This document shows, in pieces, positions 20,851 through 23,969 of a DNA stretch of 64,000 bases. The notes below the pieces were generated by a model that was given only the letters and a program-made list of their open reading frames with translations, was not told the origin of the DNA and did not search any database. Origin of the DNA: Saccharopolyspora rhizosphaerae (GTDB lineage Bacteria; Actinomycetota; Actinomycetes; Mycobacteriales; Pseudonocardiaceae); the NCBI RefSeq assembly GCF_003931915.1, contig NZ_RSAA01000015.1, forward strand, positions 124,001 to 188,000, written 5' to 3'. The translations under genes and the position numbers were made by a program. Within the stretch, counting starts at the first letter, position 1, and every line of letters starts with the position of its first letter.

Positions 20851-21011
20851 ACCACCCGTCCGGAGCTTGCGAACACGCACCGCGACATCACTGTGAGTGA
20901 GCGAAACGCCACGGCCTGAGGAAAGATTCCCGCTCCACCGGGTATGTGATCTGTCAAACGATTTCGGTCGGTGACCGCTATCAGCTTGCGCCAAGACGCG
21001 TCGATGGGGTC

Positions 21012-21017
21012 TACTAT
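21012..21017 (+). promoter_or_regulatory. -10 element of the metNIQ leader
   Basis: TACTAT lies 8 nt before the first paired base of the SAM aptamer, so the transcript would start at the aptamer. A -35 is not clear (TTGCGC at 20986 is 20 nt away). Confidence 0.45.
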
Positions 21018-21025
21018 TCGGGAAA

Positions 21026-21111
21026 TCCATCCCGAGCGGCCGAGAGACCTGGCTTGTTGACGCCGCAGCAACCACCCGTCGCGGGCAGGTGCTAACGCCA
21101 GGACCGATGGA
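21026..21111 (+). ncRNA. SAM-I (S-box) riboswitch
   Basis: P1 pairs TCCAT (21026-21030) with ATGGA (21107-21111). P2 pairs GCGGC (21036-21040) with GCCGC (21062-21066). The conserved GAGAGACCTGGC, TTGTTGAC, GCAACC and GGTGCTAACGCC blocks are in the order and spacing of the S-box aptamer. A P3-like stem ACCCG/CGGG separates the last two. It senses S-adenosylmethionine and precedes a methionine ABC importer. The 3' strand of P1 overlaps a GGAG ribosome site for a small ORF, so SAM could control that ORF's translation. Confidence 0.88.
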
Positions 21112-21117
21112 GTAGCT

Positions 21118-21261
21118 GTGGATTCCAACGCGCGGTTAGCGAACCTGCCTGCCACCGGCGACGCCCGGTACGAGGTGCTCCACATCAGGGAGCTGCTCAC
21201 GCAGCGGCGGGTCATCGACCACGGACGGCGCACCACCTGCGCCTGTCGTCGCGAGATGTGA
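21118..21261 (+). CDS. Small leader-peptide-like ORF in the metNIQ leader
   Basis: A 47-codon ORF starts at GTG 21118, 6 nt after the SAM aptamer, with GGAG 5 nt upstream that lies inside P1. Its C-terminal half reads HIRELLTQRRVIDHGRRTT then CACRREM. The RR-h-I-D-x-x-R-x(3)-C pattern resembles the short leader peptides I recall before sulfur-metabolism genes in actinobacteria, where translation over Cys codons senses amino-acid supply. An internal GTG (21175) would give a 28-residue peptide nearer the usual length. Length alone is not evidence in such GC-rich DNA; the position and pattern are. Confidence 0.5.
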   Translation: MDSNARLANLPATGDARYEVLHIRELLTQRRVIDHGRRTTCACRREM

Positions 21262-21353
21262 CCCGGCATTCCCCTTCTTCCTTTCGCCTAGAAGTTCCCC
21301 ATGGCTGCTGCCCGCGCGCGGGCCGGCCGTCGCGAGCTGATGTGGAGCAGATC
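21262..21353 (+). promoter_or_regulatory. Leader segment between the small ORF and metN
   Basis: A pyrimidine-rich run (about 21268-21288) is followed by the perfect palindrome CCCGCGCGCGGG (21311-21322). There is no T tract. It could serve as a Rho-dependent or hairpin attenuator region. The metN ribosome site GGAG is at 21344-21347. Confidence 0.3.
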
Positions 21354-22376
21354 GTGATCTCTGTAGAGAACCTGACCAAGTCCTTCCAGCACAACGGGAG
21401 TGCCGTCCGCGCCCTCGACGGCGTGTCGATGGAGGTCCACGCCGGTTCGGTGTGCGGTGTGGTCGGCCCGAGCGGAGCGGGGAAGTCGACGCTGGCCCGG
21501 TGCATCGCGCTGCTGGAGAAGCCCGACGCCGGTGCGATCCGGGTGGACGGCACCGACCTGGTGTCGCTGGACGGCAAGGCGTTGCGCGCCGCGCGCCGGC
21601 AGATCGGCGTGGTCCCGCAGGGCGATTCGCTGTTGCGGCAGCGCACCGCCGCGGGCAACGTGGCGCTGCCGCTCGAGGCCGCCGGCATCGGTGGCCCGCA
21701 GCGCCGCAACCGCGTGGGTGAGCTGCTCGACCTGGTGGGGCTGACCGACAAGGCGTCGGCCTACCCGGACCAGCTCTCCGGTGGTCAGCGCCAGCGGATC
21801 GCGGTCGCCCGCGCCCTGGCGGCCAAGCCCTCGGTGCTGCTGGCCGACGAGCCGACCTCCGCGCTGGACCCGGCCACCACCGACTCGGTGCTGACGGTCC
21901 TGGACCGCGCGCGGGCCGAACTCGGCGTCACCGTCCTCGTGGTCACCCACGACATGGCGGTGGTGCGCAAGATCGCCGACGACGTCGCGGTGCTCGAGGA
22001 CGGCCAGGTCGTCGAGCACGGCAAGGTCCTGGACCTCGTCGCCGAACCCGGCAGCAAGATCAGCGGCACCTTGCTGCCCGAAACGGACCAGGCCGACCAG
22101 CTCCGGCCGACCTCGGGACGCCACGACGTGGTCGCCGAGGTCGTCCTGGTCGGCTTCGCCGCCGTGGGAGCGCTGCTCCCCGAGGCCTCCAACCGGTTCG
22201 CCGTCGACCTGGCGATCCTGGGCGGTGGCCTGACCCGCCTCGGCGACACCCCGGTCGCCAAGTTCAAGATCGGCCTCACCGGTGAGCGTTCCGAGGCGGC
22301 GCTGAAGTGGATGATCGAGCGGGACGCGCACGTCCGGCGCGCCCCGGTGAGCGTTGACGGAGTTGCTGCTGCGTGA
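21354..22376 (+). CDS. metN: Methionine ABC transporter ATPase
   Basis: A 340-residue importer ATPase with Walker A GPSGAGKST (38-46), signature LSGGQRQR, Walker B VLLADEPTSALD, and a C-terminal NIL domain (about 255-335) that binds methionine and inhibits transport when the pool is full. The GTG start has GGAG 6 nt upstream. It overlaps metI by 4 bp. Control is probably double: SAM riboswitch on expression and NIL-domain feedback on activity. Confidence 0.95.
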   Translation: MISVENLTKSFQHNGSAVRALDGVSMEVHAGSVCGVVGPSGAGKSTLARCIALLEKPDAGAIRVDGTDLVSLDGKALRAARRQIGVVPQGDSLLRQRTAAGNVALPLEAAGIGGPQRRNRVGELLDLVGLTDKASAYPDQLSGGQRQRIAVARALAAKPSVLLADEPTSALDPATTDSVLTVLDRARAELGVTVLVVTHDMAVVRKIADDVAVLEDGQVVEHGKVLDLVAEPGSKISGTLLPETDQADQLRPTSGRHDVVAEVVLVGFAAVGALLPEASNRFAVDLAILGGGLTRLGDTPVAKFKIGLTGERSEAALKWMIERDAHVRRAPVSVDGVAAA

Positions 22377-23056
22377 CTGATGTGACCCCCTGGTCGGAGG
22401 TCGGCGAACTGCTGGGCGAGGCAACGCTCGAAACGCTTTACATGGTGCTGGTGGCGACCGTGCTGGCCGTGGTCGGCGGGTTGCCGCTGGGTGTGCTGCT
22501 GCACCTGACCTCACCGGTCGGGCTGAACCCCAAGCCGGTGCTGAACAAGGTGCTCGGCGTGGTTGTGGACGTGGTGCGCTCGGTGCCCTTCGTGGTGCTG
22601 CTGGTGGTGCTGGCGTCGTTCACCAGGCTGCTGATCGGCACCTCGATCGGCAGCAGCGCGGTGATCGTGCCGCTCACCATCGGCGCGGTCCCCTTCTTCG
22701 CGCGGCTGACGCAGAACGCGTTGCGCGAAGTCGGGTTCACCGTCGTCGAAGCCGCGATCACGACCGGGTCGAGCAGGCTGCGGATCGTGTGGACGGTGCT
22801 GCTCGGGGAGGCCCGGGCAGCGCTCGTCGGCGCTGTCGGCGTCACCGCCGTGGCGCTGATCGGCTACGCCGCGATGGCCGGCGCCATCGGCGGTGGCGGC
22901 CTGGGCACGACCGCGATCCAGGACGGCTACCAGGGCTACGACGACCGGATCCTCTACGGATCGGTCGTGGTGCTGGGCCTGCTTGCCTTCCTGATCCAGT
23001 TGATCACCGATCGCACCGCGAAGCTCGTCGATCGCCGGCGCACCGCCGTCGGCTGA
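22373..23056 (+). CDS. metI: Methionine ABC transporter permease
   Basis: A 227-residue permease with five to six transmembrane helices. The coupling-helix EAA loop is visible as EAAITTGSSRLRIVWTVLL, and RSVPFVVLLV and GGGGLGTTAIQDGY are typical of MetI. The GTG start overlaps the metN stop (GTGA). Confidence 0.95.
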   Translation: MTDVTPWSEVGELLGEATLETLYMVLVATVLAVVGGLPLGVLLHLTSPVGLNPKPVLNKVLGVVVDVVRSVPFVVLLVVLASFTRLLIGTSIGSSAVIVPLTIGAVPFFARLTQNALREVGFTVVEAAITTGSSRLRIVWTVLLGEARAALVGAVGVTAVALIGYAAMAGAIGGGGLGTTAIQDGYQGYDDRILYGSVVVLGLLAFLIQLITDRTAKLVDRRRTAVG

Positions 23057-23162
23057 CCTCCCCTCCGTTCCGGAGGACCTCCCCCCACGCGCACGTCCCA
23101 CGAGGACGGTGCGCGACCGCTGCCTGCCCGGAACCCGGGCTTGCTACGAAAGGACGCACGAC

Positions 23163-23969
23163 ATGCGCCTGCGCTTCGCCGCTCTGGTCGCCTCGGCCGG
23201 AGTGCTGCTGGCCGCCTGCGGTGGTGGTTCCGCCGCCGAAGACCCCAACGCGCCGTTGACGATCGGGGTCAGCCCGACCCCGCACGGTGAGATCCTCGAG
23301 TTCGTCGACGAGAACCTGGCCGAGCAGGCCGGCATCGACATCGAGATCGAGAAGTTCGACGACTACAACCGGCCCAACGAGGCCGTCGCCAACGGCGAGC
23401 TGGACGCGAACTACTTCCAGCACGTGCCGTACCTGGAGGAGTACCGGAAGGAGCGCGGCGGCGAGTTCGCCTGGGTCGAGCCGGTGCACCTGGAGCCGCT
23501 CGCCGTCTACTCCAAGCAGGCGAAGTCGCTGGAGGAGCTGCCGGCCGGAGCCACCGTGACCCTGTCCAACGACCCGGCGAACCAGTTCCGCGGCCTGAAG
23601 CTGCTGGAGCAGGGCGGGCTGGTCAAGCTCAAGCCGGAGGCGGCCGTGGGCACGCGGCTGGACGCGGCCATCGCCGAGAACCCGAAGAACCTCCAGCTGA
23701 AGGACCTGTCCCCGGACCAGTTGCCGCGCTCGATCGACGACGCGGCCGCCGCGGTGGTCAACGGCAACTACGCGATCAAGGCGAAGCTGTCGGACCCGCT
23801 GCTGGTGGAGAGCCCGCAGAGCAACCCCTACGCCAACGGCCTGGTTACCAGCCCGTCCCTGGCGAAGGACCCGCGGGTGCTCAAGCTGGCCGAGCTGCTG
23901 CGCAGCCCGCAGGTCACCGACTTCATCAACCAGAAGTGGGGCGGGGTCGCGGTCGTCCCCGCTTCCTGA
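23163..23969 (+). CDS. metQ: Methionine-binding lipoprotein
   Basis: A 268-residue NlpA/MetQ substrate-binding lipoprotein. The lipobox LLAAC places the lipidated Cys at residue 19, followed by a GGGSAAED tether. Conserved ligand-binding blocks include PHGEIL, NELDANYFQH-type GELDANYFQHVPYL, and SNDPANQFRGLKLL. ATG 23163 is preceded by AAAGGA. It is the last gene of the methionine operon; a long stem-loop follows. Confidence 0.95.
   Translation: MRLRFAALVASAGVLLAACGGGSAAEDPNAPLTIGVSPTPHGEILEFVDENLAEQAGIDIEIEKFDDYNRPNEAVANGELDANYFQHVPYLEEYRKERGGEFAWVEPVHLEPLAVYSKQAKSLEELPAGATVTLSNDPANQFRGLKLLEQGGLVKLKPEAAVGTRLDAAIAENPKNLQLKDLSPDQLPRSIDDAAAAVVNGNYAIKAKLSDPLLVESPQSNPYANGLVTSPSLAKDPRVLKLAELLRSPQVTDFINQKWGGVAVVPAS

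Follow-up and report, generated by a model that had tools for sequence, protein, structure and literature searches.

A SAM-I riboswitch overlapping the ribosome site of a conserved Cys-codon leader ORF upstream of metNIQ in Saccharopolyspora rhizosphaerae: a candidate riboswitch-gated attenuator

The control of upstream ORFs (uORFs) by a riboswitch has been described for the Mtb pe20 Mbox, for which Rho-dependent termination was shown and whose authors, in the sections of their report that deal with this point, keep open the choice between Rho exclusion and the unmasking of a Shine-Dalgarno sequence (SD) (PMC12810186). On the side of the leader peptides, a 2005 survey placed Cys leaders before actinobacterial cys operons, with pyrimidine stretches and without terminators, and proposed Rho for them, its passages on these leaders calling their own evidence weak (PMC1262725). 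Translation attenuation has been reported for a Cys leader of M. smegmatis, as cited in PMC13236596. In Streptomyces lividans, the metNIQ operon is preceded by the metL leader, which contains Cys and Met and ends in RCMCRRMCAF according to the part of the report devoted to it (PMC8079986).

Riboswitch-controlled uORFs and Cys leaders are thus each known, and the nesting of the two appears for now to be unreported. A full-text literature search, covering few subscription papers, returned no report of a SAM-I riboswitch nesting a Cys leader, so that this absence is provisional, and six exact leader motif strings occurred in full texts only in four papers on unrelated subjects, as judged by title. 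A sequence-only reading of the locus had known of no described case of this nesting: the statement stands for now for SAM-I combined with a Cys leader, but not for the components, a uORF riboswitch (PMC12810186) and Cys leaders (PMC1262725) being already known from the relevant portions of these two reports.

The aptamer, the leader ORF and metNIQ

The window, by which we mean the whole stretch of 64,000 nucleotides that was analysed, contains the following features between the probable promoter and metQ.

21012-21017, + strand: -10-like hexamer TACTAT of a probable promoter, 12 bases ahead of the aptamer
21024-21113, + strand: SAM-I riboswitch aptamer (RF00162; cmscan, 59.3 bits against a gathering threshold of 44.4)
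21026-21031, + strand: P1 5' strand UCCAUC, pairing with 21106-21111 (cmscan alignment and sequence)
21106-21112, + strand: P1 3' strand GAUGGA plus G, containing the leader-ORF Shine-Dalgarno GGAG (21109-21112)
21118-21261, + strand: leader ORF, GTG start, 47 codons plus TGA (sequence, coding signature, conservation)
21205-21252, + strand: conserved leader core RRVIDHGRRTTCACRR (alignment; all 75 leaders have Asp(+9)Cys)
21244-21246, + strand: terminal Cys codon, UGU, the putative sensing codon (the same triplet in 73 of 75 leaders and in 68 of 68 named loci, two sets that share genomes)
21354-22376, + strand: metN, methionine ABC transporter ATPase, GTG start (best match TIGR02314, E 2.2e-83, whose 280.1 bits fall short of the curated equivalog cut-off, 499.7; metI- and metQ-like genes come next)
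22373-23056, + strand: metI permease (NF008049, E 9.8e-55, 185.6 bits, cut-off 212)
23109-23969, + strand: metQ substrate-binding lipoprotein (NF008285, E 5.5e-47, residues 23-282, 160.4 bits, cut-off 374), whose true start is possibly further in

The closest named MetN proteins, at 97% identity, are those of S. dendranthemae (Pseudonocardiaceae) and S. aridisoli. The ORFs flanking metNIQ are presumably ksgA/rsmA and ispE.

The covariance search proposed in the sequence-only reading recovered the aptamer, the match exceeding the gathering threshold and spanning the whole RF00162 model (1-108). Apart from it, Rfam gives only two tRNAs at gathering level in the 64-kb window, and the S. rhizosphaerae genome contains only two SAM-I matches, the one before metN and one of the long type. 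With metNIQ downstream, the context of the aptamer is that of methionine and sulfur genes. A TANNNT hexamer occupies the position of TACTAT in 53 of 81 loci but occurs in only 8 of 891 background windows, and its placement would set the transcript start about at the first base of the aptamer; a sigma-70 consensus scan did not find a full promoter.

The P1 3' strand had been placed at 21107-21111, over the GGAG, which was right within a base: 21106-21111 (GAUGGA) takes in three of the four bases of the GGAG at 21109-21112. The 47-codon ORF predicted behind it is also present, from GTG 21118, five bases past the GGAG, to TGA 21259-21261, and its peptide ends in RRVIDHGRRTTCACRREM. It has no NCBIfam or Pfam match at E 1. 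Its start, preceded by an SD and lying behind the aptamer, is not of the leaderless kind. The in-frame GTG at 21175 is disfavoured as an alternative start because many other genera have a short ORF starting right at the P1 SD.

The conservation of this arrangement was followed in 81 short-type loci, namely the window, 40 from an RF00162 search of 61 genomes and 40, most of which represent one genus each with some odd cases added, from a search across the family, in which a model made of 17 short aptamers matches 140 of 150 genomes at E <=0.001, a few weakly; 79 of these loci come from Pseudonocardiaceae and two (L046, L067) from outside. A leader ORF with the common core starts 2-10 bases past the aptamer in 75 of the 81, the starts having been sought from -1 to +16 relative to the aptamer end. 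There is no leader at the aptamer end in the other six (L033, L046, L067, L119, L120, L121); L121 has a leader-like frame further down, and the aptamers of L033 and L119 run directly into a long frame. The leaders are 22 to 89 codons long, the start staying at the aptamer and the core staying in frame. All 75 leaders have an SD-like string inside the 3' strand of P1, the loci having been chosen by an aptamer similarity which itself favours GATGG at this strand. By this comparison, the layout in all 75 is that of a riboswitch-gated uORF, with its putative SD inside what would be the ligand-stabilised helix, and the first regulatory layer foreseen by the sequence-only reading, in which SAM would hide the ribosome site of the leader, follows from the geometry. 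In a set of named metN loci (78 kept of 110 relatives, whose genomes overlap with those of the 81 loci), 68 have the SAM-I core pattern and the leader, those of Saccharopolyspora spinosa and S. hirsuta among them, and the remaining 10, from Firmicutes, proteobacteria and one Desulfovibrionales genome, lack the short core pattern, the only one sought, other SAM-I types being possible in these 10 non-actinobacterial genomes.

The coding test and the first codon table were made on the 34 leaders of the first set, and a later recount took in all 75. Over the 34 leaders, the entropy averages 0.41, 0.22 and 1.12 at the three codon positions, and the single-base codon differences are 2324 synonymous against 593 nonsynonymous in frame and 341/2370 and 194/2400 in the other frames, these counts coming from pairs of related sequences that are not independent. 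By this signature, the leader ORF evolves as coding sequence. Spurious ORFs are plentiful in high-GC genomes (80 ORFs of at least 30 aa overlap one 10-kb stretch), which would favour reading the frame as a product of chance next to a standard SAM-I riboswitch of the translational type; this reading is refuted by the comparison, through the codon-position pattern, the fixed start and end and the recurrence at 75 of 81 and 68 of 78 loci, and its probability is practically nil.

The end of the leader has a consensus of about LTxRRV(I/V)DxxRRTxxxCR, with a spacing of nine residues between Asp and Cys in 75 of 75 leaders. The ORF frame, the start and the RRxID...C pattern, on whose conservation the sequence-only reading had staked its claim, are kept across Pseudonocardiaceae. 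Cys occurs at core positions 6 and 11 in 7 of 34 leaders each and at position 13 in 34 of 34; there is no polycysteine run of the kind known from mycobacterial leaders, the window leader having CAC, with two Cys codons near its end. In 74 of 75 leaders, 9-36 nt separate the terminal Cys from the last base of the stop codon. With a short ORF apparently under coding selection, Cys near the stop and a sulfur gene after it, the suggested likeness to the sulfur-linked leaders of actinobacteria seems well founded.

The two exceptions to the terminal UGU, both UGC, are copies in genome G025 (L065 and L069) that do not precede metN. UGU accounts for 7 of 81 metN Cys codons in the first set and 4 of 56 in the second, and for 11 of the 136 Cys codons of 44 window ORFs. 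At the non-terminal Cys codons of the leaders it is found in 22 of 60 cases (3/23 in the first set and 19/37 in the second), so that UGU is favoured across the leaders generally and near-absolute at the terminal Cys. The bases 3' of this codon are variable, and the constraint therefore looks like one on decoding. The conserved amino-acid motif and its fixed spacing could also be those of a functional small protein, but the N-terminal part is free to vary (22 to 89 codons), the family precedes varied genes and the keeping of a rare synonymous codon at one position points to decoding and not to the product, so that we consider a small protein very improbable.

Related leaders with and without the riboswitch

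A motif-profile search of the S. rhizosphaerae genome found leaders devoid of SAM-I: among 17 matches at E <=10, nine loci were inspected, of which the nested leader and five others were counted as leaders, the rest being mostly weak partial matches. The five stand-alone leaders (L072, L073, L074, L079, L080) all have the terminal UGU and precede a DUF4395 gene, an SsuD-like monooxygenase, two transporters and one other gene, and UGU stands at Asp+9 in 19 of 20 stand-alone leaders picked by hand from relatives. By these comparisons, the metN leader belongs to a family of leaders, several of which precede apparently sulfur-linked genes, and it is the sole SAM-I-controlled member found in this genome.

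Some particulars of these loci may be recorded. The leaders L072 and L079 are divergent and near each other on one contig. A by-eye look had taken the gene downstream of L074 for a cysteine dioxygenase, an assignment that was dropped, its 106-residue piece having matched no family. In genome G005, a leader with a DUF4395-like gene occurs twice (L190, L191), in near-identical copies about 1.5 kb apart.

Outside Pseudonocardiaceae, 30 loci were fetched from the matches to the short-aptamer model. A frame of at least 100 residues starts within 20 bases of the aptamer in 18 of them, 17 having the GATG of P1 at the aptamer end; one of the 18 is MetN-like (L130). Since P1 ends right in front of a long frame in these loci, it appears to act on the structural gene itself. 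A nested Asp+9 Cys leader with UGU is present in four of the 30 loci (L132, L135, L137 and L146, from three genomes), which belong to two further families, f8 and f49. The simplest reading of these distributions would be a stacking of two modules, which may have happened more than once.

The related leaders without SAM-I in the same genome would also suit a pure Cys attenuator, SAM-I acting chiefly on transcript stability or on a leader-independent termination. This reading is helped by the inner P1 columns, invariant in 17 aligned aptamers, so that covariation is unable to prove a switching of the SD. Against it stand the P1-embedded SD and the start 2-10 bases further, both conserved in all 75 leaders, the P1 ends that abut long frames elsewhere and the fact that no intrinsic terminator was found nearby, and we regard it as quite improbable.

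Other SAM-I loci show further arrangements. L137 and L146 (f49) have a variant core, DCMRxxSxxC, with a terminal UGU, and precede an ABC ATPase and an apparent sulfite reductase (both by eye). Genome G025 has five short-type SAM-I copies (L062, L065, L069, L070, L124), three of them on one contig, all with a nested leader and none before metN; the genes downstream encode an ABC substrate-binding protein (L062) and, by eye, apparent FAD- or flavin-dependent oxidoreductases. For the long type, the leader motif was found in none of the 21 loci inspected of 30 fetched, and several of these loci (L017-L020 and similar), which are the second SAM-I of their genomes, directly precede an apparent threonine synthase (by eye), the leader being absent.

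The spacer and the metN ribosome site

The stop codon of the leader and the start of metN are separated by 92 bases. The features of this interval, and the leader stretch that may pair with it, are as follows.

21176-21188, + strand: leader stretch able to form 13 bp with the metN ribosome-site region (anti-SD; MFE fold)
21262-21300, + strand: C-rich, G-poor pyrimidine tract after the leader stop, candidate Rho loading site
21311-21322, + strand: GC palindrome CCCGCGCGCGGG, present, not conserved
21337-21349, + strand: metN ribosome-site region CTGATGTGGAGCA, with GGAG at 21344-21347 (sequence)

In the window, the tract comprises 18 C, 12 T, 5 G and 4 A. The comparison used sets of 60 loci, kept when the leader was present, the metN start mapped and the spacer unique and of limited length: the 45 bases past the leader stop reach at least 60% pyrimidine in 55 of 60 loci, whereas only 4 of 70 controls do so, these being ORF ends all taken from this window with overlaps unfiltered. 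The C/G ratio in successive 15-base steps after the stop is 3.05, 2.84, 1.56 and 1.07. The tract is weaker after the stand-alone leaders (9 of 20 at a pyrimidine fraction of at least 0.6). The idea that it serves as an anti-SD of metN was rejected, its pairing being 0.216 against 0.372 in its own shuffles (p 1.8e-6) and above the shuffles in only 10 of 60 loci; CTCC is likewise rarer in the tract than expected (21 of 60 against 35.5). Being C-rich and shunning the metN SD, the tract would suit a single-strand binder such as Rho.

The sequence-only reading had pointed to this pyrimidine stretch and to the GC palindrome as possible effectors. The stretch is real and conserved; the palindrome is present, but a role for it finds no support and it was discarded as an attenuator hairpin, with no conservation in the genus and a z of -0.21. 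RNAalifold detected no conserved structure in 21 leader-to-metN stretches, and no intrinsic terminator, as a classical transcription attenuator would have, was found in 20900-21420. Two repeat-like elements were seen on the way: a near direct repeat, GTCGCGAGATGTGA at 21248-21261 (leader end) and GTCGCGAGCTGATGTG at 21329-21344 (before metN), similar in most same-genus rows; and, in the metN spacers of L091, L094, L098, L101, L103 and others, from several genera, GTCC-loop-GGAC palindromes, often two in tandem, which may be mobile repeats or binding sites and do not occur in the window spacer.

The accessibility of the metN SD was predicted over 60 loci, themselves related to each other. In the naked RNA the access is 0.286, against 0.345 when the leader is shuffled (p 0.005, lower in 40 of 60). 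When all RNA 5' of UGU+13 is removed, a generous model of the stalled state, it rises to 0.435, and with the spacer shuffled it is 0.311 (effect of the spacer: p 1.4e-9, the native spacer giving the higher value in 55 of 60 loci). With the ribosome placed on the stop codon, the access is 0.419, against 0.435 at UGU (p 0.07). Whole-region upstream shuffles revealed no excess sequestration of the metN SD (0.293, p 0.54); the signal of the leader emerged on a second look, with leader and spacer shuffled apart, and is to be weighed accordingly. The predictions suggest, modestly, that the leader RNA tends to cover the metN SD and that the spacer leaves it open. The second layer of the sequence-only reading, in which the translation of the leader affects metN, would thereby receive comparative support from the conserved tract, the predicted opening by the spacer and the predicted covering by the leader.

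In the genus, there is a complement between the core CCACATC of the leader and GATGTGG at the metN SD, which lies at one position relative to the Asp codon in 18 of 20 same-genus loci, exact in 16 and with a one-wobble variant in 2. Compared with shuffles, the best helix between leader and SD gains little in length (6.55 against 5.96, p 0.004, 60 loci), and the complement is not kept outside the genus. This genus-level anti-SD stands about 64 nt upstream of the UGU, beyond one stalled ribosome, and would for this reason report the translation of the leader or a queue of ribosomes more than a stalling at Cys.

The main rival to the model that we propose below starts from these data: the leader would be only a relay that passes on the SAM signal, the naked leader masking the metN SD and cysteine playing no part, and the C-terminal motif would be a remnant of a Cys leader that no longer works as one. 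The 13-bp complement in the window, with its core in 18 of 20 same-genus loci, the reduction of the predicted SD access by the leader RNA and the ribosome at the stop codon, which opens the SD about as well as the one at UGU, are all in keeping with it. The complement is, however, lost outside the genus, whereas the Asp+9 Cys and the UGU are kept family-wide, which would not be expected under relaxed selection and argues against the relay, a reading that we find rather unlikely.

A two-signal model and its relation to known systems

The model we prefer, to which we give a probability of about 0.6, is that of a riboswitch-gated attenuator, in which SAM-I gates a Cys-sensing leader ORF that controls metNIQ. 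The response to SAM, the stalling at Cys, the action through Rho or unmasking and the AND logic are what we infer from the arrangement that the comparison has established, that is the aptamer, the SD in P1, the coding and conserved leader, its UGU and the tract. When SAM is plentiful, P1 would form and bury the GGAG of the leader, which would remain untranslated. The naked leader RNA would keep metNIQ off by exposing the C-rich tract to Rho and, in the genus of the window, also by the pairing of leader codons with the metN ribosome site. At low SAM, the leader would be translated and, if cysteine is short, the ribosome would slow down at the conserved UGU, probably with the help of the nascent sequence RRxxDxxRRxxxxC. 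The stalled or queued ribosomes would then cover the tract and the leader RNA, resulting in the expression of metNIQ. Rho exclusion and SD unmasking could act together. The methionine importer would be fully on only if both sulfur pools are low, and if the translation of the leader is required for metN, SAM would gate a Cys sensor, the importer being on at low SAM only and most strongly under a shortage of cysteine. Methionine can feed both sulfur pools in organisms with reverse transsulfuration, and this fits the two-signal logic of an importer. A stricter version, in which SAM-I licenses a nascent-chain-assisted arrest peptide (RRxxDxxRRxxxxC) at a rare UGU kept by selection and thereby builds an AND gate over the two pools, is attractive to us at somewhat less than even odds.

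One usually finds either a riboswitch or a ribosome-sensing leader; at this locus, the first appears to govern the translation of the second. If the model is true, two metabolites would be computed in about 330 bases of RNA. On the stricter version, the leaders would be the hallmark of a sulfur regulon spread widely among actinobacteria, and their family supplies a signature for charting a cysteine regulon in antibiotic producers. Do Cys leaders read the charged tRNA alone or the nascent peptide too? The fixed spacing between Asp and UGU lets this question be asked.

Among the described systems, the pe20 Mbox resembles our locus in the succession of an aptamer whose end carries a short ORF's SD, then pyrimidine-rich sequence and the SD of the next ORF, and differs from it by its Mg2+ aptamer and its poorly conserved uORF1, amino-acid sensing not being described for its uORFs in the sections concerned (PMC12810186). 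The metL leader of S. lividans likewise contains Cys and stands upstream of the same metNIQ operon, but it is reported to be leaderless and is without the RRxxD core, and the SAM-I of S. lividans sits before threonine genes, as far as the part of the report on metL goes (PMC8079986). The SAM-II riboswitch of Sinorhizobium metA has in common with our locus a SAM aptamer, an SD acting on translation at a distance and two start codons, the differences being another type of aptamer and a second start in frame, with no mention of a Cys leader in the passages that describe it (PMC9373788). The actinobacterial Cys leaders share the short ORF, the Cys codons near the stop and the sulfur genes after it, in the survey's passages on them (PMC1262725); they are described with Cys runs and, by the title of Canestrari et al. 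2020, as leaderless (via PMC9094748 and PMC13236596, in the portions citing it), whereas the window leader has one conserved UGU in RRxxDxxRRxxxxC and a ribosome site placed under a riboswitch. Finally, with the SAM-I riboswitches of the translational type (RF00162) our locus shares the aptamer family and the sulfur gene context; in the usual case the first gene under the switch is a structural gene, whereas in the window it is a leader peptide that comes first.
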